From positions 1,736,001 through 1,800,000 of the forward strand of contig NZ_LT907842.1 of the NCBI RefSeq assembly GCF_900215245.1: a DNA stretch of 64,000 nt, given 5' to 3'. This DNA is from Pseudomonas fluorescens (GTDB lineage: Bacteria > Pseudomonadota > Gammaproteobacteria > Pseudomonadales > Pseudomonadaceae). The notes below the pieces were generated by a model. The model did not search any database, was not told where the DNA came from, and worked only from the letters and a program-made list of their open reading frames with translations. A program made the translations under genes and the position numbers. This document shows positions 35,843 through 43,959 of the stretch, piece by piece (position 1 is the first letter of the stretch; each line of letters opens with the position of its first letter).

Positions 35843-37202
35843 ACCGCTGAAACTCGCCGTGGTCGGCCACACCAATGTCGGCAAGACCTCGCTGCTGCGC
35901 ACCCTGACCCGCGATGTCGGGTTTGGCGAAGTGTCCCATCGGCCCAGCACCACGCGGCATGTCGAAGGCGCGCGGTTATCGGTGGATGGCGAGGCCTTGC
36001 TGGAGCTATACGACACGCCCGGCCTGGAAGATGCCATCGCCCTGCTCGACTATCTGGAACGCCTGGATCGCCCCGGCGAACGCCTCGACGGCCCGGCCCG
36101 TCTGGCGCGCTTCCTGGAAGGCAGCGAAGCGCGCCAGCGGTTTGAACAGGAAGCCAAGGTGCTGCGCCAATTGCTGGCCTGCGACGCCGGCCTGTATGTG
36201 ATCGACGCCCGCGAGCCGGTGCTGGCCAAGTACCGCGATGAACTGCAAGTGCTGGCCAGTTGCGGCAAGCCGTTGCTGCCGGTGCTCAATTTCGTCAGCA
36301 GCAGCGACCACCGCGAGCCGGACTGGCGCGAAGCCCTGGCCCGCCTTGGCCTGCATGCGCTGGTGCGTTTCGACAGCGTGGCGCCACCGGAAGATGGCGA
36401 GCGTCGTCTTTATGAAAGCCTGGCCCTGCTTCTGGAGAATTCGCGGGGGCCGTTGGAGCGGCTGATTCTCGACCAACAAGCCCAACGCGAGGCGCGCCAG
36501 CAAAGCGCCGCACGGCTGATCGCCGAGCTGCTGATCGACTGCGCCGCCTGCCGGCGCAGCGTTTTGACTGCCGATGAACAGCAAGCCATCAGTGATCTGC
36601 GCAAAGCCGTGCGCCAACGCGAACAGAAATGCGTGGAAGCCCTGCTCAAACTGTTCGGTTTCCGCCCACAAGATGCCGCCGCCAGCGACTTGCCGTTACT
36701 CGACGGCCGCTGGGGCGATGACCTGTTCAACCCGGAAACCCTCAAGCAACTCGGCGTGCGCGTCGGTGGCGGAATCGCCGCAGGGGCGGCTGCCGGGGCA
36801 GGTGTGGACCTGCTGGTCGGTGGCTTGACGCTTGGCGCCGCCGCCATTGCCGGGGCGATTGCCGGGGGCGCCCTGCAAACGGCGCGTAGCTACGGCAGCC
36901 GCCTGCTGGGCAAGATCAAGGGCCAACGCGAATTGACCGTGGACGACAGCGTGCTGCGCCTGCTCGCCCTGCGCCAGCGCCAGTTGCTCAAGGCCCTGAG
37001 CCTGCGCGGCCATGCGGCGATGCACAGCATCAAGGTCGACACGCCTCAGGATAAAACCTGGCGTGAAGGCAAGTTACCGGACGCGCTGCACAAGGCCCGC
37101 GCTCATCCGCAATGGTCGTCCCTGAACCCTCATCCCAAGCTGAGTCAGGCAGAGCGCCAGGAACACATCCAAGCCCTGGCCCAGCGTCTGGATGAAACCT
37201 AA
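35835..37202 (+). CDS. DUF3482 GTPase
   Basis: A 455-residue Era/TrmE-like GTPase. The P-loop is G11-H-T-N-V-G-K-T-S, switch II is YDTPGLEDA, and a TRHVEG segment stands near switch I. An NKXD motif is not obvious: the expected strand reads LPVLNFVSSS. A Gly/Ala-rich hydrophobic segment at about residues 310-348 may insert in or bend along the membrane. It is coupled to the DUF2868 membrane protein. Cellular role unknown. Confidence 0.85.
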   Translation: MTKPLKLAVVGHTNVGKTSLLRTLTRDVGFGEVSHRPSTTRHVEGARLSVDGEALLELYDTPGLEDAIALLDYLERLDRPGERLDGPARLARFLEGSEARQRFEQEAKVLRQLLACDAGLYVIDAREPVLAKYRDELQVLASCGKPLLPVLNFVSSSDHREPDWREALARLGLHALVRFDSVAPPEDGERRLYESLALLLENSRGPLERLILDQQAQREARQQSAARLIAELLIDCAACRRSVLTADEQQAISDLRKAVRQREQKCVEALLKLFGFRPQDAAASDLPLLDGRWGDDLFNPETLKQLGVRVGGGIAAGAAAGAGVDLLVGGLTLGAAAIAGAIAGGALQTARSYGSRLLGKIKGQRELTVDDSVLRLLALRQRQLLKALSLRGHAAMHSIKVDTPQDKTWREGKLPDALHKARAHPQWSSLNPHPKLSQAERQEHIQALAQRLDET

Positions 37203-37753
37203 GCCGCGAGCAGGTGCCGAGCTTTGGCCTTGAGCACTTCAAGATCAAGCACCGGTATGGATACATGCTTGGCCTGTTCATCCCAATGGCGCATGCGCAA
37301 ACTAACCGCACACAGCGGGTCCTGTTCGAAGGCCTGGGCTTCTTCGACGCTCATCATGCCGCCCTGGTACGCCAAAGTGCGGCGGCTGGCTTCGCTCAGG
37401 CGGGCGTAATAGCCCGGCTGGCTGAAGGTCAGGTAACGCTTGGCCTGCACGTGATATTCCACCAACCTGGCCATGCGCTCACTGAAGCCCGCCCGGCGCA
37501 AGTAATCTGCGCCCAGCCGCTCATGGCTGACCACACCATAACTGCCCATGTTTTCACCCCCCTGGCCGCACAAGTGCCCGATGTCGTGGAAAAACGCCGC
37601 CAGCACCACTTCATCATCAAACCCCTCGGCCATCGCCTGTTGCGCGGTTTGGGACATGTGTTCGATCTGCGACACCGGCTCGCCGATGTAATCCGCCATG
37701 CCGTGCTGCTCGTACACGCCAAAGACTTCGGCAATCGCCTGCTCCGGGCTCAT
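37199..37753 (-). CDS. PhnZ-like HD-domain phosphonate oxygenase
   Basis: A 184-residue HD-domain protein at the end of a phosphonate-type operon. Tyr22, Glu25, His32, His56-Asp57, His60, His77, His101, Lys105, Arg155 and Asp158 stand at spacings that match the di-iron and substrate residues I recall for PhnZ, which cleaves (R)-2-amino-1-hydroxyethylphosphonate to glycine and phosphate. I chose the ATG at 37753, which overlaps the preceding stop by one base (TGATG); a GTG 15 bases upstream is possible. Its stop overlaps the DUF3482 stop by four bases on the other strand. Confidence 0.82.
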   Translation of the reverse strand: MSPEQAIAEVFGVYEQHGMADYIGEPVSQIEHMSQTAQQAMAEGFDDEVVLAAFFHDIGHLCGQGGENMGSYGVVSHERLGADYLRRAGFSERMARLVEYHVQAKRYLTFSQPGYYARLSEASRRTLAYQGGMMSVEEAQAFEQDPLCAVSLRMRHWDEQAKHVSIPVLDLEVLKAKARHLLAA

Positions 37754-38886
37754 CACGCGGCCCCCCACAGGGTTGTGATATTTCGCTCGGCCATGGCCGG
37801 CCCCACGCTCATGCCCACGCCGGTGTGCATCAGTGCCGCGCTCACGCCGGGCGCTACGCGCAGGAACGAAAACGGCGCCGGCCCGCGCGAGCCGTAGACG
37901 CCCTGCCAGCGCTCGACCACTTGGACCTTGCAGCCCAACGTTTGCTCGGCCAGCTCGATCAGCCAGTCATCAACCTGCTCGGCGTTGAACGGCGAGGCGT
38001 CGCTGCCGTAGTCATGGGAGTCGCCGATGATCAGTTCGCCATGGGGCGTCGGGCTGATCAACAAGTGAATCCCGTGCGCGTGCAAATGCGCGGCTTCGCG
38101 CAGGATCTGCGCCTGAACCGGCGCAGCCTCGGGCAGGTCGGCGAAGGCGCCGTAATGCACGCAACTCAACCCTGTGAGCAACGCGTGTTGCAGGTTGAGG
38201 TTGGCCGCAGGCCGGGCACGCAGCATTTGCAGGCGGCAGATACTCGGGTTGAGTTCGGCGATCGGTTCCGCCAGCAAGGTTTGGTAGTCGTGGCCGGAGC
38301 ACACGATGACCTGCTCGCCGCGAAAGCTGCCTAAGGTGGTGTGCACCTGGCCGGGCTCCACGTCACGCACCAGGGTGGAGAAATGAAACTCCACGCTCAA
38401 TTGCTGGCTCAAGTAGTTGATCAGCGCCGGAATCGCCTCGCGGGAATACAACTGCTGATCGTCTTTACCATGCAGCGCTGCGCGGTGATGGCGAAACTGA
38501 CCGCCATATAGGTCCTTCATCGCCGCGCCTTGCAGCAGTTCGACGTTATAGCCGTGTTCGTGTGCGCGACCGGCGCAGAAGGCTTCCAACAGATGCTCTT
38601 CGGCTTCGGTGCGGGCAAACAGGTACGAGCCGTTGCGCTTGAGCTGCACACCCGCCACTTGTGCCCATTGCCCCCAGATGCCGCGACTTTCCCGGGCCAG
38701 GTCAAGCATCGGCCCCGGTGGTTGGCCGGTGACCAGCGCCTGGCCGAAGTTGCGCACCGAGGCACCCAACGGTGTGGCGCTGCGCTCGAACACCTTGACC
38801 TTGAGGCCGCGCCTGGCCGCCGCATAAGCGTGGGACAGGCCGAGGATGCCGGCGCCGATGATCAGCAGATCGCTGTGGTGTGTCAT
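37753..38886 (-). CDS. FAD-dependent oxidoreductase of phosphonate operons (DAO family)
   Basis: A 377-residue D-amino-acid-oxidase-fold flavoprotein. The FAD motif is IIGAGILGLSHAYAAARRGLKVKVFER (about 9-35), and the C-terminal GVGMSVGPAMAE is typical. It corresponds to the family annotated as a phosphonate-locus FAD oxidoreductase. Such enzymes are reported to deaminate or demethylate aminoethylphosphonates; activity here is inferred. The ATG at 38886 was chosen because the upstream extension is translated REP sequence. Confidence 0.85.
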   Translation of the reverse strand: MTHHSDLLIIGAGILGLSHAYAAARRGLKVKVFERSATPLGASVRNFGQALVTGQPPGPMLDLARESRGIWGQWAQVAGVQLKRNGSYLFARTEAEEHLLEAFCAGRAHEHGYNVELLQGAAMKDLYGGQFRHHRAALHGKDDQQLYSREAIPALINYLSQQLSVEFHFSTLVRDVEPGQVHTTLGSFRGEQVIVCSGHDYQTLLAEPIAELNPSICRLQMLRARPAANLNLQHALLTGLSCVHYGAFADLPEAAPVQAQILREAAHLHAHGIHLLISPTPHGELIIGDSHDYGSDASPFNAEQVDDWLIELAEQTLGCKVQVVERWQGVYGSRGPAPFSFLRVAPGVSAALMHTGVGMSVGPAMAERNITTLWGAA

Positions 38887-38910
38887 TACATGATGTCCTG
38901 AATTCGAAGC

Positions 38911-38990
38911 CGCCTGCGCGAGCAAGCCCGCTCCTACATGTTGATGTGCGAACACGTTCAAATGTGGGAGCGGGCTTGCCTGCGAAGAGG
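38911..38990. repeat. Inverted REP pair inside the phosphonate operon
   Basis: CCTGCGCGAGCAAGCCCGCTCC and GTGGGAGCGGGCTTGCCTGC flank a 26-base spacer between the binding-protein and oxidoreductase genes. It may stabilise the abundant upstream transporter mRNA. Confidence 0.8.
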
Positions 38991-39011
38991 CCATAAGCCC
39001 TAACGAAAACC

Positions 39012-40037
39012 TTACTGACCCGCGACCTTTTCCGACTTGCCGTCATAGCGCTTGCGCCACTCGGTCAGGATGCTGTCGCGGTTTTTCGAGGCCCAGGCGA
39101 AGTCGTTCTTGATCAGGCGTTGCTCGTAGTCAGCGGGCAATTCGGTCTGCGGCTTGGCGATGCCAGGCTGGGCGAGGACAGCGAAGTTGTCTTTGTACAA
39201 GTCCATCGCCGCAGCGCTGGCGGAGAAGTCAGCGAGCTTTTTAGCCGCCTCGGCGTGCGCGGTGCCTTTGATCACGGCAGTCGCTTCGATGTCCCAGCCC
39301 AGGCCTTCTTTGGGCAGGATGATGTCCAGCGGCGCGCCTTGGCGTTTCAGCTGGACGGCCGGGTATTCGAAGGAAATGCCAATCGGGAACTCACCCGAAG
39401 CCGCCAGTTTGCACGGCTTGGACCCGGAGTGAACGTACTGGCCGATGTTCTGGTGCAGGTCGTCCATGTACTGCCAGCCCTGTTTCTCGCCAAAGGTCTG
39501 CAACCAGGCACTCACATCCAGGAAGCCGGTGCCGGACGAGGCCGGGTTAGGCATCACGATCTTGCCCTTGTACTCAGGCTTGGTCAGGTCCTGCCAGCTC
39601 ACCGGTTTGGTCAAGCCTTGTTTCTCGGCTTCGACGGTGTTGAAGCAGATGGTCGCAGCCCACACGTCCATGCCGACCCAGGCCGGTGGGTTGGCGGCGT
39701 CGCGGTAGTTTTTACCGATCTTGTCCAAGTCCTTGGGCGCGTAGTTAGTCAGCATGCCTTGCTGGTCAAGGATCGCCAGGCTCGACGCGGCCAGGCCCCA
39801 CACCACGTCGGCTTGCGGGCGGTCTTTCTCGGCCAGCAGCTTGGCGGTGATGATGCCGGTGGAGTCGCGTACCCATTTGATCTCGACGTCCGGGTTGGCT
39901 TTTTCAAAGGCCTGCTTGTAAGTCTTCAACTGCTCGGCTTCGAGCGCCGTGTACACCGTCAACTCGGTTTTGGCAGCAAAGGCATTCAGGCTGAATGCGC
40001 TGAGTAAAGCAGCGGCCAGGGCCAGGGGCTTGAACAT
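39012..40037 (-). CDS. ABC transporter substrate-binding protein, 2-aminoethylphosphonate type
   Basis: A 341-residue periplasmic binding protein with a signal peptide (MFKPLALAAALLSAFSLNAFA) and an iron/2-AEP-type fold (TELTVYTALEAEQLKTYKQAFEK; WVRDSTGIITAKLLAEKDRPQADVVWGL). Without context it could be an iron-binding FbpA-like protein. The flanking PhnZ-like and FAD oxidoreductase genes and LysR regulator favour phosphonate uptake. Confidence 0.82.
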   Translation of the reverse strand: MFKPLALAAALLSAFSLNAFAAKTELTVYTALEAEQLKTYKQAFEKANPDVEIKWVRDSTGIITAKLLAEKDRPQADVVWGLAASSLAILDQQGMLTNYAPKDLDKIGKNYRDAANPPAWVGMDVWAATICFNTVEAEKQGLTKPVSWQDLTKPEYKGKIVMPNPASSGTGFLDVSAWLQTFGEKQGWQYMDDLHQNIGQYVHSGSKPCKLAASGEFPIGISFEYPAVQLKRQGAPLDIILPKEGLGWDIEATAVIKGTAHAEAAKKLADFSASAAAMDLYKDNFAVLAQPGIAKPQTELPADYEQRLIKNDFAWASKNRDSILTEWRKRYDGKSEKVAGQ

Positions 40038-40056
40038 GGAACACCTCCTTCAGGGA

Positions 40057-41781
40057 TTATTGGCCGGGCGCGGTCTGGCGCCAGGCTTGGGAGCGGCGCA
40101 ACGCGCCACGTGAAGCCCACGCCAGCAGCAGCGAGACGCCGCCTGAGGTGAACAGAATCAGGGTGGACATGGCCGCGGCGCCGCCTACGTTGCCGGCGTC
40201 GTCCATGTTCAACACGGCGACAGCGGCGAGGAGGGTATCGGGGCTGTAGAGGAAGATCGCGGCGGACACGGTGGTCATCGCCGACACAAACAAGTAGCGC
40301 ACGATGTCCAGCAGCGCCGGCAAGCAGATCGGTACGGTGACGCGCAAATAGTGGCGGTACAGCGGCGCCTTGAGCGACAGCGCGGCGGCTTCAAACTCAC
40401 TGTCCAGCTGACGCAACGCCGTGGTCGCGGTCATCTGCGCAGTGGTCAAATAGTGCGCAATGGTGCACACCACCAGCAGGGTCATGGTCCCGTAGAACAC
40501 ATGCAGCGGGTTGCCGTTGAGGTTGAAAAAGAACACGTAGCCCAGGCCGAGCACCAGGCCTGGCACGGCCATCGGCACAAAACTGAGCATGCGCAGCGCC
40601 AGGTTCAGGCCTTTCTGGCCCTTGGTCTTTTCCATCAGGTAGGCGCCCGTGAAGATCAATACGCTACCGATCAGCGCCGTGCACAGGGCCATGGTCAGGC
40701 TGTTGCGATAGGCCAGCCAACCGCCACCGGCCGTGTCTTCGAATTGGTAGTGGTTGAGCGACAGCGACAGGTTGTACGGCCAGAATTTAACCAGGGAGGA
40801 ATACACCGCCATGCCGAACACCAGCAGCAACACCGCGCAAATCAGCAGCACAATGGCCAGGTAGCACCCATCGCGGCGCGCCGAGGGCGCCGGCTGGAAC
40901 ACCTGGGCACGGCCACTCATGGCGTCACCCTGCCGACGGCGCAACCAGGCGTCGACCGCAAAGCTGAACAGCGCCGGCAACAGCAACACCATGCCAATCA
41001 ATGCACCGCGACCGAACTGCTGCTGGCCGACCACCGCCTTGTAGGCCTCCAGCGCCAGCACCTGATAATCGCCGCCGACCACCACGGGCACGCCGAAGTC
41101 GGTGATGGTCAGGGTGAATACCAGGCAAAACGCAGCGAACACCGCCTGGCGCGTGGCCGGCCAAGTGATGCTGCGAAACGCCCGGGCTGGACTTGCCCCC
41201 ATGCTCGACGCCGCGTCGAACAAACGCGCATCTGCCAGCGACAGTGCCGACAGCAGGATCATTAACGCGTGTGGGAAGGTGTAGATCACTTCGCCGAGGA
41301 CAATGCCCCAGAAACCGTAGATATTCTCCGAAAGCAGCCCGCGCAACATGCCCTGGTTGCCGAACAGATACACCAGCGCAATCCCCGGCAGCATTGACGG
41401 CGCCATCAACGGCAGCAGCGATATACCCCGCCAGACTGCCTTGCCGGGAATCAGTGTGCGCTGCAATGCGTAAGCAAACAGATAGGCCAACGGTACGACG
41501 ATGGCCGCTACGCTGAGGGAAACCTTCAGGCTATTGCCCAGCAGCCAGTGGAAGTTGTCGCTGGTGACCAGCTCGCGCGCCGCGACCCACCCACCGCCCT
41601 GCCCGGCTTCACTGCTGAAGCCGCGCCAGAAGATCGCCAGTAATGGCATCAGTACCGCCACGCCCAACAGGCACAACCAGAGCACTTTGCCACCGAGCAC
41701 AAAAATGCGGTCGCCCAGTTCGGCGCGGGACACCTGACGAGCCAGGTTGTCGGGAATCGGCAGTGTCATATCTTCGGCCAT
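40057..41781 (-). CDS. ABC transporter permease, 2-aminoethylphosphonate type (fused)
   Basis: A 574-residue protein with two fused transport permease domains, about 12 membrane helices in total and an EAA-like loop in each half (DAASSMGASPARAFRSITWP and the EFEAAALSLKAPLYRHYLRVTVP segment). This fusion is typical of the Fbp and 2-AEP transporter families. I chose the ATG at 41781, one base after the ATPase stop; an ATG at 41769 is an alternative. Confidence 0.82.
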   Translation of the reverse strand: MAEDMTLPIPDNLARQVSRAELGDRIFVLGGKVLWLCLLGVAVLMPLLAIFWRGFSSEAGQGGGWVAARELVTSDNFHWLLGNSLKVSLSVAAIVVPLAYLFAYALQRTLIPGKAVWRGISLLPLMAPSMLPGIALVYLFGNQGMLRGLLSENIYGFWGIVLGEVIYTFPHALMILLSALSLADARLFDAASSMGASPARAFRSITWPATRQAVFAAFCLVFTLTITDFGVPVVVGGDYQVLALEAYKAVVGQQQFGRGALIGMVLLLPALFSFAVDAWLRRRQGDAMSGRAQVFQPAPSARRDGCYLAIVLLICAVLLLVFGMAVYSSLVKFWPYNLSLSLNHYQFEDTAGGGWLAYRNSLTMALCTALIGSVLIFTGAYLMEKTKGQKGLNLALRMLSFVPMAVPGLVLGLGYVFFFNLNGNPLHVFYGTMTLLVVCTIAHYLTTAQMTATTALRQLDSEFEAAALSLKAPLYRHYLRVTVPICLPALLDIVRYLFVSAMTTVSAAIFLYSPDTLLAAVAVLNMDDAGNVGGAAAMSTLILFTSGGVSLLLAWASRGALRRSQAWRQTAPGQ

Positions 41782-41782
41782 C

Positions 41783-42847
41783 TCAGGCAAACACCTGCAG
41801 GCTGCGCGGCGGCAAGGCAACCCAGATGTCCTGGGCACCGAGGCGTGGCATGGCTTCGGGGGCCAGTTCGGCCAGCAGCGGATGGCCGGGCAATTGTTCC
41901 AGCTCAAAGCTCATGCGGCAGCGGTTGCCGAGAAAGGTGATTTCGCGGACCTTCGCCGGGAACAGGTTTTCTTCATGCACCGGCGGGTTGACGCTGATGG
42001 CTTCCGGGCGGCAGAACAAACGGCCGGACCTGGCCTTGCTGGCGTTATCGTCCAGGCGCATGTTCATACCGCCGACCTGGGCATGGCTGTCGCTGTTGCG
42101 GCTGAACGGCAGCCAATTGCCCTGGCCGACGAACTCCGCCACGAACGGCGTGGCCGGTCGGTCGTAGATTTCCTGGGGCGTGGCATATTGCTCGACCTTG
42201 CCGTTGTTCATCACGGCGATGCGGTCCGCCATCAACATGGCTTCGTCCTGGTTATGGGTGACCATCAGGGTGGTAATCCCCAGGCGTCGTTGCAGTTGGC
42301 GCAACTCGGTGCACAAGTGCTCGCGGACACGGGCGTCGAGCGCCGACATCGGTTCGTCCAACAGCAGCAAAGAAGGGGCTGGCGCCAGAGCACGGGCCAG
42401 AGCGACGCGTTGTTGTTGGCCGCCAGAGAGTTGGCCGGGGTATTTCTTTTCACTGCCCAGCAGGCCGACCAGTTCGAGCATCTGGCCGACACGCTTGCGC
42501 ACTTCATCGCGGCCGCTGCCGGTGAGGCCGTAGCCGATATTCGCTTCAACGGTCAGGTTGGGAAACAGCGCGTAGGACTGGAACAAAATCCCGTAGTCCC
42601 GTGCCTGTGGTGGCAGCAAGGAAACATCCCGTTGGCCAAGGTAAAGTTCGCCGCTGTCCTGGCGCTCCAGACCGGCGATACACCGCAGCAAAGTGGTCTT
42701 GCCGCAACCGGACGGGCCCAGCAGGCACACCAGCTCACCGGCCGCGACGTCCAGCGACACATTGTCCAGCGCAGTAAAGGCGCCGAAGCGTTTCTGGATA
42801 CCGCGCACCTTCATCGGCGCGCCGGGGTTGGTCAGGGCTGTGTTCAT
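41783..42847 (-). CDS. ABC transporter ATPase, 2-aminoethylphosphonate type
   Basis: A 354-residue ATPase: Walker A GPSGCGKTTL, signature LSGGQQQRVALARAL, Walker B LLLLDEPMSALD, H-loop MVTHNQDEA, and a C-terminal TOBE-like region (about 240-350). It is the first gene of the operon and has a GAGG ribosome-binding site next to a small hairpin. Confidence 0.85.
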   Translation of the reverse strand: MNTALTNPGAPMKVRGIQKRFGAFTALDNVSLDVAAGELVCLLGPSGCGKTTLLRCIAGLERQDSGELYLGQRDVSLLPPQARDYGILFQSYALFPNLTVEANIGYGLTGSGRDEVRKRVGQMLELVGLLGSEKKYPGQLSGGQQQRVALARALAPAPSLLLLDEPMSALDARVREHLCTELRQLQRRLGITTLMVTHNQDEAMLMADRIAVMNNGKVEQYATPQEIYDRPATPFVAEFVGQGNWLPFSRNSDSHAQVGGMNMRLDDNASKARSGRLFCRPEAISVNPPVHEENLFPAKVREITFLGNRCRMSFELEQLPGHPLLAELAPEAMPRLGAQDIWVALPPRSLQVFA

Positions 42848-42856
42848 GGAGGCACC

Positions 42857-42871
42857 TCATCAAACTGATGA
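42857..42871. promoter_or_regulatory. Hairpin at the operon's first ribosome-binding site
   Basis: TCATCA-AAC-TGATGA is a perfect 15-base inverted repeat ending ten bases before the ATPase start codon and touching its Shine-Dalgarno sequence. A second palindrome, GTAGT-A-ACTAC (42950-42960), lies farther upstream and is a candidate LysR site. Confidence 0.4.
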
Positions 42872-42983
42872 AGGCCATGCTAGAGGGGCAATGCGTCCCT
42901 GATGTGGCAGGAAGGCAAAAGGGAGTGATAGTGGTATTGGTGGATTTGGGTAGTAACTACAGAGATGTGTTGTTTGGGATCCC

Positions 42984-43075
42984 GCTTTCGCGAGCAAGCC
43001 CGCTCCCACATTTTGACCGCATTCTCATGCTGGAACTCGGTCGAAGGTGGGAGCGGGCTTGCCCGCGATGGCGAT
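42984..43075. repeat. Inverted REP pair with composite spacer
   Basis: TTTCGCGAGCAAGCCCGCTCC and GGTGGGAGCGGGCTTGCCCG flank the spacer TTTTGACCGCATTCTCATG + CTGGAACTCGGTCGA, the same unit as at 33787-33830. It separates the LysR gene from the transporter operon. Confidence 0.85.
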
Positions 43076-43095
43076 CCAAAGGCCAGCACAAAACC

Positions 43096-43959
43096 TCAGA
43101 GCGGCGACATTTCCTGCGCCAACCCGAGAAAGGCAGCAGGCAGGCGAGCCCCTTTTCTTTCCTTGAGGCAGTACAAATACTCCGGAATCTGCGGCGAGTT
43201 CTCGATGGTCAGCACGCGCAACTGCGGGTCATGGGGCACTTCCTGGCGGGCGATGATGCTGATACCGATATTGCGCAGCACGGCCTCGCGAATCGACTCA
43301 CGGCTGCCGATTTCCAGCAGTGGCCCGTAATTCACACCCGCGCCTTGTAACAATTCTTCGGTCAACCTGCGCGTGGTCGAACCCGCCTCACGCATCAACA
43401 GCGTGTGCCCGGCCAACGCACTGAGCGGTACATGCTCGAGGGTGGCCAACGGGTGATTGCGATGCACCGCCAGCACCAACGGATCGGTGCCCAGTACGCG
43501 CCGGATCAGACGAGGGTCTTCCAGCAGTTGCGAGGACGCGGCGACATCGACGCGGTAATCGTCCAAGGCTTCGAGCACCTGCTGGGAGTTGCCGATTTCC
43601 ACCGACACCTCCACGTGGGGCAGGCGTTCACGAAAAGCTTTGACCAGGTCGAGAATGTAATACGGCGCCGTTGCGGCAATCCTCAAGGCACCCTGGACAT
43701 GGCCGCTGTTACGCAGGAAAAACTCGATATCGGCTTCCTGCTGCAACAGCGTCTTGACCATTGGCAGCAGCCGCGCACCTTCGTCGCTGACGGTAAGGCG
43801 GCGGCCGCCCCGGTAGAACAGCTCAACGCCGTACTGGCTTTCCAGGTTGCGAATCTGCGTGGTGACGGTGGGCTGGCTCAGGCCGAGTTTTTTCGCCGCC
43901 TGGGTAATGCTGCCCAGGCGGGCGACCATAAAAAACGCCTTCAACTCGGCACTCAGCAC
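43096..43959 (-). CDS. LysR-type regulator of the phosphonate operon
   Basis: A 287-residue LysR protein with an N-terminal winged helix (LKAFFMVARLGSITQAAKKLGLSQPTVTTQIRNLESQYGVELFYR) and a periplasmic-binding-like effector domain. It starts with GTG behind GAGAGGG. It lies upstream of, and on the same strand as, the transporter operon, and only 16 bases after the cadA stop. It is the probable aminoethylphosphonate-responsive activator. Confidence 0.85.
   Translation of the reverse strand: MLSAELKAFFMVARLGSITQAAKKLGLSQPTVTTQIRNLESQYGVELFYRGGRRLTVSDEGARLLPMVKTLLQQEADIEFFLRNSGHVQGALRIAATAPYYILDLVKAFRERLPHVEVSVEIGNSQQVLEALDDYRVDVAASSQLLEDPRLIRRVLGTDPLVLAVHRNHPLATLEHVPLSALAGHTLLMREAGSTTRRLTEELLQGAGVNYGPLLEIGSRESIREAVLRNIGISIIARQEVPHDPQLRVLTIENSPQIPEYLYCLKERKGARLPAAFLGLAQEMSPL

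Follow-up and report, generated by a model that had tools for sequence, protein, structure and literature searches.

The operon studied here lies on the reverse strand, at positions 37199..43959, of a 64,000 nucleotide stretch of Pseudomonas fluorescens DNA (contig NZ_LT907842.1, positions 1,736,001 to 1,800,000; hereafter 'the window'). Its six genes encode a LysR-type regulator, an ATP-binding cassette (ABC) importer of the 2-aminoethylphosphonate (AEP) type, a flavin adenine dinucleotide (FAD) amine oxidoreductase known as HpnW, and an HD-domain oxygenase of the PhnZ clade. Its modules are all known ones, combined in an ordinary way. It probably serves two parallel branches that share one importer, with HpnW and the HD protein acting on different compounds.

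Characterised relatives suggest both reactions, both substrates, uptake by the importer and control by LysR. The operon would be a substrate-range extender for aminophosphonates, in which a LysR-controlled importer supplies two independent accessory enzymes. HpnW would deaminate N-methyl-AEP, and AEP more slowly, to give phosphonoacetaldehyde, methylamine and H2O2. The phosphonoacetaldehyde would then be cleaved by PhnX, encoded at a distant phnWX locus. The HD enzyme, which would occupy the position held by PbfA in other clusters, would use O2 to convert environmental (R)-1-hydroxy-2-aminoethylphosphonate (R-HAEP) to glycine and phosphate. Because this R-HAEP would be imported, PhnY* would be unnecessary.

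The operon and its genes

The genes are listed from the upstream end. Each product scored above the curated cut-off of its own NCBIfam model.

43096..43959, reverse strand: LysR-type regulator of the phosphonate-associated subfamily TIGR03339, first gene (422.7 bits, cut-off 341.1)
41783..42847, reverse strand: PhnT2, ATPase of the AEP-type ABC importer, TIGR03265 (520 bits, cut-off 457.7)
40057..~41781, reverse strand: PhnU2, fused permease of the importer, TIGR03262 (746.7 bits, cut-off 593.25)
39012..40037, reverse strand: PhnS2, periplasmic binding protein of the importer, TIGR03261 (538.3 bits, cut-off 392.75)
37753..~38886, reverse strand: HpnW, PbfD-type FAD amine oxidoreductase, TIGR03364 (454.2 bits, cut-off 285.1)
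37199..37753, reverse strand: PhnZ-clade HD-domain oxygenase, TIGR03276 (224.9 bits, cut-off 214.6)

The initial annotation, made from sequence alone, had named these functions in this place and had described a one-base overlap of the FAD and HD genes; both points hold. In the motif TGATG, the hpnW stop codon (TGA, 37755-37753) and the HD start codon (ATG, 37753-37751) have base 37753 in common. We placed the PhnU2 start at 41781, and not at the end of a longer frame reaching 41907, because the TIGR03262 alignment of that frame starts at its residue 76. For hpnW, ~38886 was preferred to 38994 because the protein has 374-379 amino acids in the 120 listed homologues. Similarly, the HD start was set at 37753 and not 37768, since most of the 120 listed homologues have 184 amino acids. 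All three importer subunits (PhnS2-T2-U2) pass their curated family scores, and binding of an AEP-type ligand is predicted.

Phylogenetic analysis of the HD protein used 36 of 37 HD loci together with the window protein, PhnZ and TmpB; locus L029 was omitted, its frame being badly extracted. The window protein fell in the clade of genuine PhnZ, separate from TmpB, with support of 99/97; the PhnZ branch is long (1.92). The protein has the full H...HD...H...H...D diiron motif and YxxE loop, as defined in PMC8177086, aligned to PhnZ residues Y24, E27, H34, H58-D59, H80, H104 and D161. Curated family score, clade and fold all place it in the PhnZ type. By analogy, it would cleave R-HAEP to glycine and phosphate.

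The assignment of HpnW draws on published enzymes. PbfD1 has been assigned to TIGR03364 (PMC10590968). In the accessible text of that paper, incubation of PbfC, PbfD1 and PbfD2 with N-methyl-AEP gave no formaldehyde, and nuclear magnetic resonance identified methylamine and phosphonoacetaldehyde as products. Hence, these enzymes do not demethylate N-methyl-AEP. PbfD2 was 4-fold less efficient with AEP than with N-methyl-AEP (PMC10590968). The window HpnW resembles PbfD1 in belonging to TIGR03364 and in accompanying phosphonoacetaldehyde-consuming genes. The substrates of PbfD1 and PbfD2 have been measured. By analogy with these relatives, the window enzyme would convert N-methyl-AEP, and some AEP, to phosphonoacetaldehyde. 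A predicted structure of HpnW had a mean predicted local distance difference test score (pLDDT) of 34.8 and was discarded.

The assembly is a single contig of 6.51 Mb. Adjoining phnW (566 bits) and phnX (332 bits) genes, confirmed with NCBIfam models, lie at 6331157-6333060, with phnX at 6332308. The distance to the operon is 4.6 Mb by contig coordinates, or 1.95 Mb in the opposite direction should the contig be circular. Because phnW and phnX are present, the organism should be able to consume phosphonoacetaldehyde. PhnW and PhnX had initially been reported as missing. This is correct for the window, where tblastn at E 1e-15 found no relative of PhnW, PhnX, PhnA or TmpA and one generic aldehyde dehydrogenase match (30%). 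It is incorrect for the genome; the premise is valid for the operon only. The absence of a PhnA route stands, as no phnA match was found anywhere in the genome at E 1e-20. The gene for PhnJ of carbon-phosphorus lyase is present at 4266392.

A PhnY had likewise been considered absent. The genome contains a single gene for a PF05721 protein, which we take to be the family of PhnY*. It is at 81746, separated from the operon by 1.7 Mb, and no phosphonate gene was found near it. Similarly, none of 38 HD loci has a PF05721 gene at 13 kb or less, and a nearby PhnY* partner for the HD enzyme was therefore rejected. In three congeners with the whole operon (G130, G237 and G310), a PF05721 search at E <= 1e-10 found nothing. 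Direct uptake of hydroxylated AEP followed by HD cleavage, one of two routes first suggested, fits both this result and the place of the HD protein in the PhnZ clade.

Genomic company of hpnW and the HD gene

We searched 398 Pseudomonadota genomes for hpnW (TIGR03364, E <= 1e-60) and found it in 27. PhnX scored above cut-off in 21 of these; PhnA is present in 4 (G249, G194, G197 and G095) and a PhnX-like gene in the remaining 2. Genes for PhnA, for PhnW and for a phosphonoacetaldehyde dehydrogenase relative (822 bits to TIGR03250 in G194) are no more than 8 kb from hpnW in G249, G194 and G197; the PhnA gene of G095 lies elsewhere in the genome. PbfA (NF049939, 665 bits) adjoins hpnW in G194, and the G197 copy is 93% identical. 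In G090 and G393 (loci L066 and L068) the PhnX-like gene is ~1.4 kb from hpnW, with one 431-residue frame between; the L066 frame had no NCBIfam match at 1e-20.

The PhnX search covered 54 of the 398 genomes, namely 37 carrying a Phn-HD gene, 10 more that carry hpnW, and 7 same-family genomes lacking both. The PhnA and PhnJ searches covered 16 genomes. Phn-HD genomes with hpnW encoded PhnX in 15 of 17 cases, compared with 3 of 20 Phn-HD genomes lacking hpnW. The contrast is weaker when compared genus by genus (p 0.01). A further 5 of those 20 genomes show PhnA near the HD gene, in a search that was local. None of the 7 same-family genomes with neither gene has PhnX. Thus, hpnW tracks genes of the phosphonoacetaldehyde route.

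Linkage to the HD gene is looser. No HD gene is present in 10 of the 27 hpnW genomes, and in 8 more it is unlinked or 9 kb away. In the other 9, HD adjoins hpnW or is one gene off. The two are on the same strand in 7 of these, all from the genus of the window. The 38 HD loci, the window included, have varied settings. A TmpA relative is alongside in 14; hpnW adjoins HD or is one gene off in 9; another 7 are in PhnWX or PhnA clusters without an adjacent hpnW (in L018, hpnW is 9 kb away); and 8, from eight genomes (L021, L022, L023, L027, L030, L033, L035 and L052), have no recognised phosphonate gene nearby. Three genomes of another genus in the family (L056-L058) have a T2-U2-S2-HpnW operon without HD, preceded by LysR in two of the three. 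The same genomes carry HD elsewhere (L021-L023), in a different clade from the window protein.

Some HD loci have further neighbours. Relatives of TIGR03329, a 'putative aminophosphonate oxidoreductase', occur at L019, L025 and L032; two adjoin HD and the third is in a PhnW-PhnX-HD cluster. Thus, HD also accompanies a different FAD enzyme. Positions 3854-10318 of L034 hold PhnW, PhnA, a phosphonoacetaldehyde dehydrogenase relative and TmpA-HD in one cluster, and the L034 HD protein does not group with TmpB. Genome G351 has two HD genes. One (L051) is beside PhnX and HpnW; the other (L052) is beside a LysR-like gene, and its product is missing the YxxE glutamate.

We also inspected the best 80 named hpnW loci, of at least 586 confirmed relatives; here, as at the HD and hpnW loci above, neighbours were labelled by tblastn with one representative per family. 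HD is present in 51, all in records titled Pseudomonas, and absent from 29. Since these 80 are the best of so many, the 51 of 80 should not be read as a frequency for hpnW loci at large. Among the 29, 25 have transporter plus hpnW and 4 are PhnA/PhnW clusters; one of the 25, L142, is uninformative on HD, as the contig stops inside hpnW. PhnX is inside the operon at 10 of the 80 loci, 3 of which also have HD. In P. fluorescens PfR 37, hpnW is the end of the operon, and an unrelated frame precedes the GTPase gene whose counterpart in the window comes after HD. The HD gene is a separable, optional add-on to the hpnW operon.

Probable parallel branches and the alternatives

The other route suggested by the initial annotation was one in which the flavoprotein supplies the HD enzyme, for example by N-demethylation. 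In its fuller form, the substrate of HpnW would be a hydroxylated aminophosphonate, with or without N-methylation, and the product, R-HAEP or 1-hydroxy-phosphonoacetaldehyde, would pass to HD, with release of phosphate and glycine or glyoxylate. We consider such a sequence unlikely, and the data do not require it. It would account for the close spacing of the genes. Taking the in-frame HD start closest to the hpnW stop, the 51 loci have overlaps of 1 base (27 loci) or 4 bases (18 loci), and gaps of 10 bases (5 loci) or 226 bases (1 locus). The 9 genomes with HD at most one gene from hpnW point the same way. A hydroxy-AEP substrate was proposed in the TIGR03364 description, as quoted in PMC10590968, and HpnW has been named as a possible source of substrate for PhnHD (PMC11203657). 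However, transporter and hpnW occur without HD at the 25 named loci described above, HD is missing or distant in 18 of the 27 hpnW genomes, and PhnX or PhnA is present in 25 of the 27. Demethylation in particular is disfavoured by the exclusion of that reaction for PbfC, PbfD1 and PbfD2 with N-methyl-AEP. The accessible text of PMC10590968, Figure 3 and supplement aside, gives no activity on hydroxylated forms.

A specific variant would make the pair independent of PhnX. HpnW would convert a hydroxylated, possibly N-methylated, aminoethylphosphonate to 1-hydroxy-phosphonoacetaldehyde, from which HD would yield phosphate and glyoxylate; HpnW operons lacking HD would reflect another use of the oxidase. 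This, too, we regard as unlikely.

It is quite improbable that plain AEP is the main substrate of HpnW, which would then duplicate PhnW, and that HD is a PhnZ using hydroxy-AEP from a PhnY*-type enzyme encoded at an unlinked site, for example the 81746 protein. The presence of that PF05721 protein, and the modest 4-fold preference of PbfD2, are compatible with this scheme. Conversely, phnW is already in the genome, and three congeners have the same operon without a PF05721 match. The 81746 gene (L016, 1300-2172) also adjoins ABC permease-ATPase and binding protein genes for which the best models, under cut-off, are amino-acid transporters, and its product has no NCBIfam match at 1e-20. For the neighbouring binding protein, the top match is a kinase model that includes a binding-protein-like domain.

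A TmpB-like HD oxygenase for trimethylated or otherwise N-methylated hydroxy-AEP is very improbable, because the window protein scores 125.5 bits with the TmpB model (NF049941) against a cut-off of 300, it groups with PhnZ, and, unlike in the TmpA-TmpB pathway, the window (the extent of the TmpA search) has no TmpA relative.

Parallel branches fed by one importer remain the probable arrangement, and several observations weigh against them. The strongest is that the reading frames of hpnW and HD overlap at 45 of the 51 named loci, a closer coupling than unrelated branches require. The 8 of 38 HD loci without a phosphonate gene leave room for TIGR03276-like proteins that act on other compounds. 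No match to PbfA was found in the best 80 named loci, HD carriers included, so PbfA does not replace HD at those that lack it. The importer would have to take up hydroxy-AEP and N-methyl-AEP, and AepX of Stappia is described as highly AEP-specific (PMC8316502). For 2 of the 27 hpnW genomes, the only candidate for PhnX is the PhnX-like protein, which scored 208.8 or 212.7 bits with TIGR03351 (cut-off 218.9). Finally, HpnW proteins beyond the clade of the window HpnW are only 31-38% identical to it.

Setting of the operon and related systems

Two operon gaps contain pairs of inverted repeats resembling repetitive extragenic palindromic (REP) elements.

42983..43073, no strand assigned: pair of REP-like inverted repeats lying between the LysR and ATPase genes, 30-nucleotide arms, 87% complementary
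38914..38987, no strand assigned: pair of REP-like inverted repeats lying between the PhnS2 gene and hpnW, 35-nucleotide arms, 77% complementary

The element GGAGCGGGCTTGCTCGCG, allowing up to 2 mismatches, occurs 21 times in the window, compared with 0.01 expected; 17 sites are outside these two pairs. A Pho-box scan of the window gave a sole match, with 3 mismatches and not close to the operon, fewer than the 3.76 matches expected by chance. Promoter and terminator scans of the window gave no excess over chance. At the phnW-phnX locus (L054 7615-13112, at 6.33 Mb), two further TIGR03339 LysR genes lie upstream. A major facilitator superfamily transporter at L054 has best models of the PgtP/GlpT kind, all under cut-off, and is possibly AepP-like. 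P. putida BIRD-1 has AepP, a transporter of the GlpT-related kind (PMC8316502).

Phosphonatase operons of two Achromobacter strains are similar in clustering LysR, phnSTU, a TIGR03364 HpnW and a TIGR03276 PhnHD, with phnW elsewhere (PMC11203657). They differ in having phnX in the cluster; here, phnX is far off beside phnW. The roles of HpnW and PhnHD were undecided in that 2024 paper, which also noted that some pseudomonads have TIGR03276 proteins together with PhnW and PhnX and lack PhnY*. As in the oxidative PhnY*-PhnZ pathway for AEP, the window HD protein is a PhnZ-clade oxygenase, with common conserved residues and fold; unlike that pathway, the operon has no PhnY* partner and carries a PbfD-type oxidase.

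PbfA provides a parallel as an R-HAEP branch in phnWX and phnWAY clusters (PMC8154272), being likewise an accessory hydroxy-AEP enzyme in an AEP gene cluster. However, its product is phosphonoacetaldehyde, whereas HD would free phosphate directly and require O2. According to the accessible text of PMC8154272, PhnW-PhnX fail to process R-HAEP properly, the compound is known from a soil amoeba, and phnZ homologues occur in 15 of 1,186 phnWX and 24 of 75 phnWAY clusters, never alongside pbfA. Our literature search, with subscription journals mostly outside it, found no assay of an HD protein from an operon like this one.

The hpnW-HD pair is frequent in Pseudomonas among the best 80 named hpnW loci. 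If the two enzymes do serve parallel branches, PhnZ genes in such operons would be scavengers of environmental hydroxy-AEP, and not markers of AEP oxidation by PhnY* and PhnZ. The undecided question of HpnW and PhnHD in Achromobacter would then become testable.

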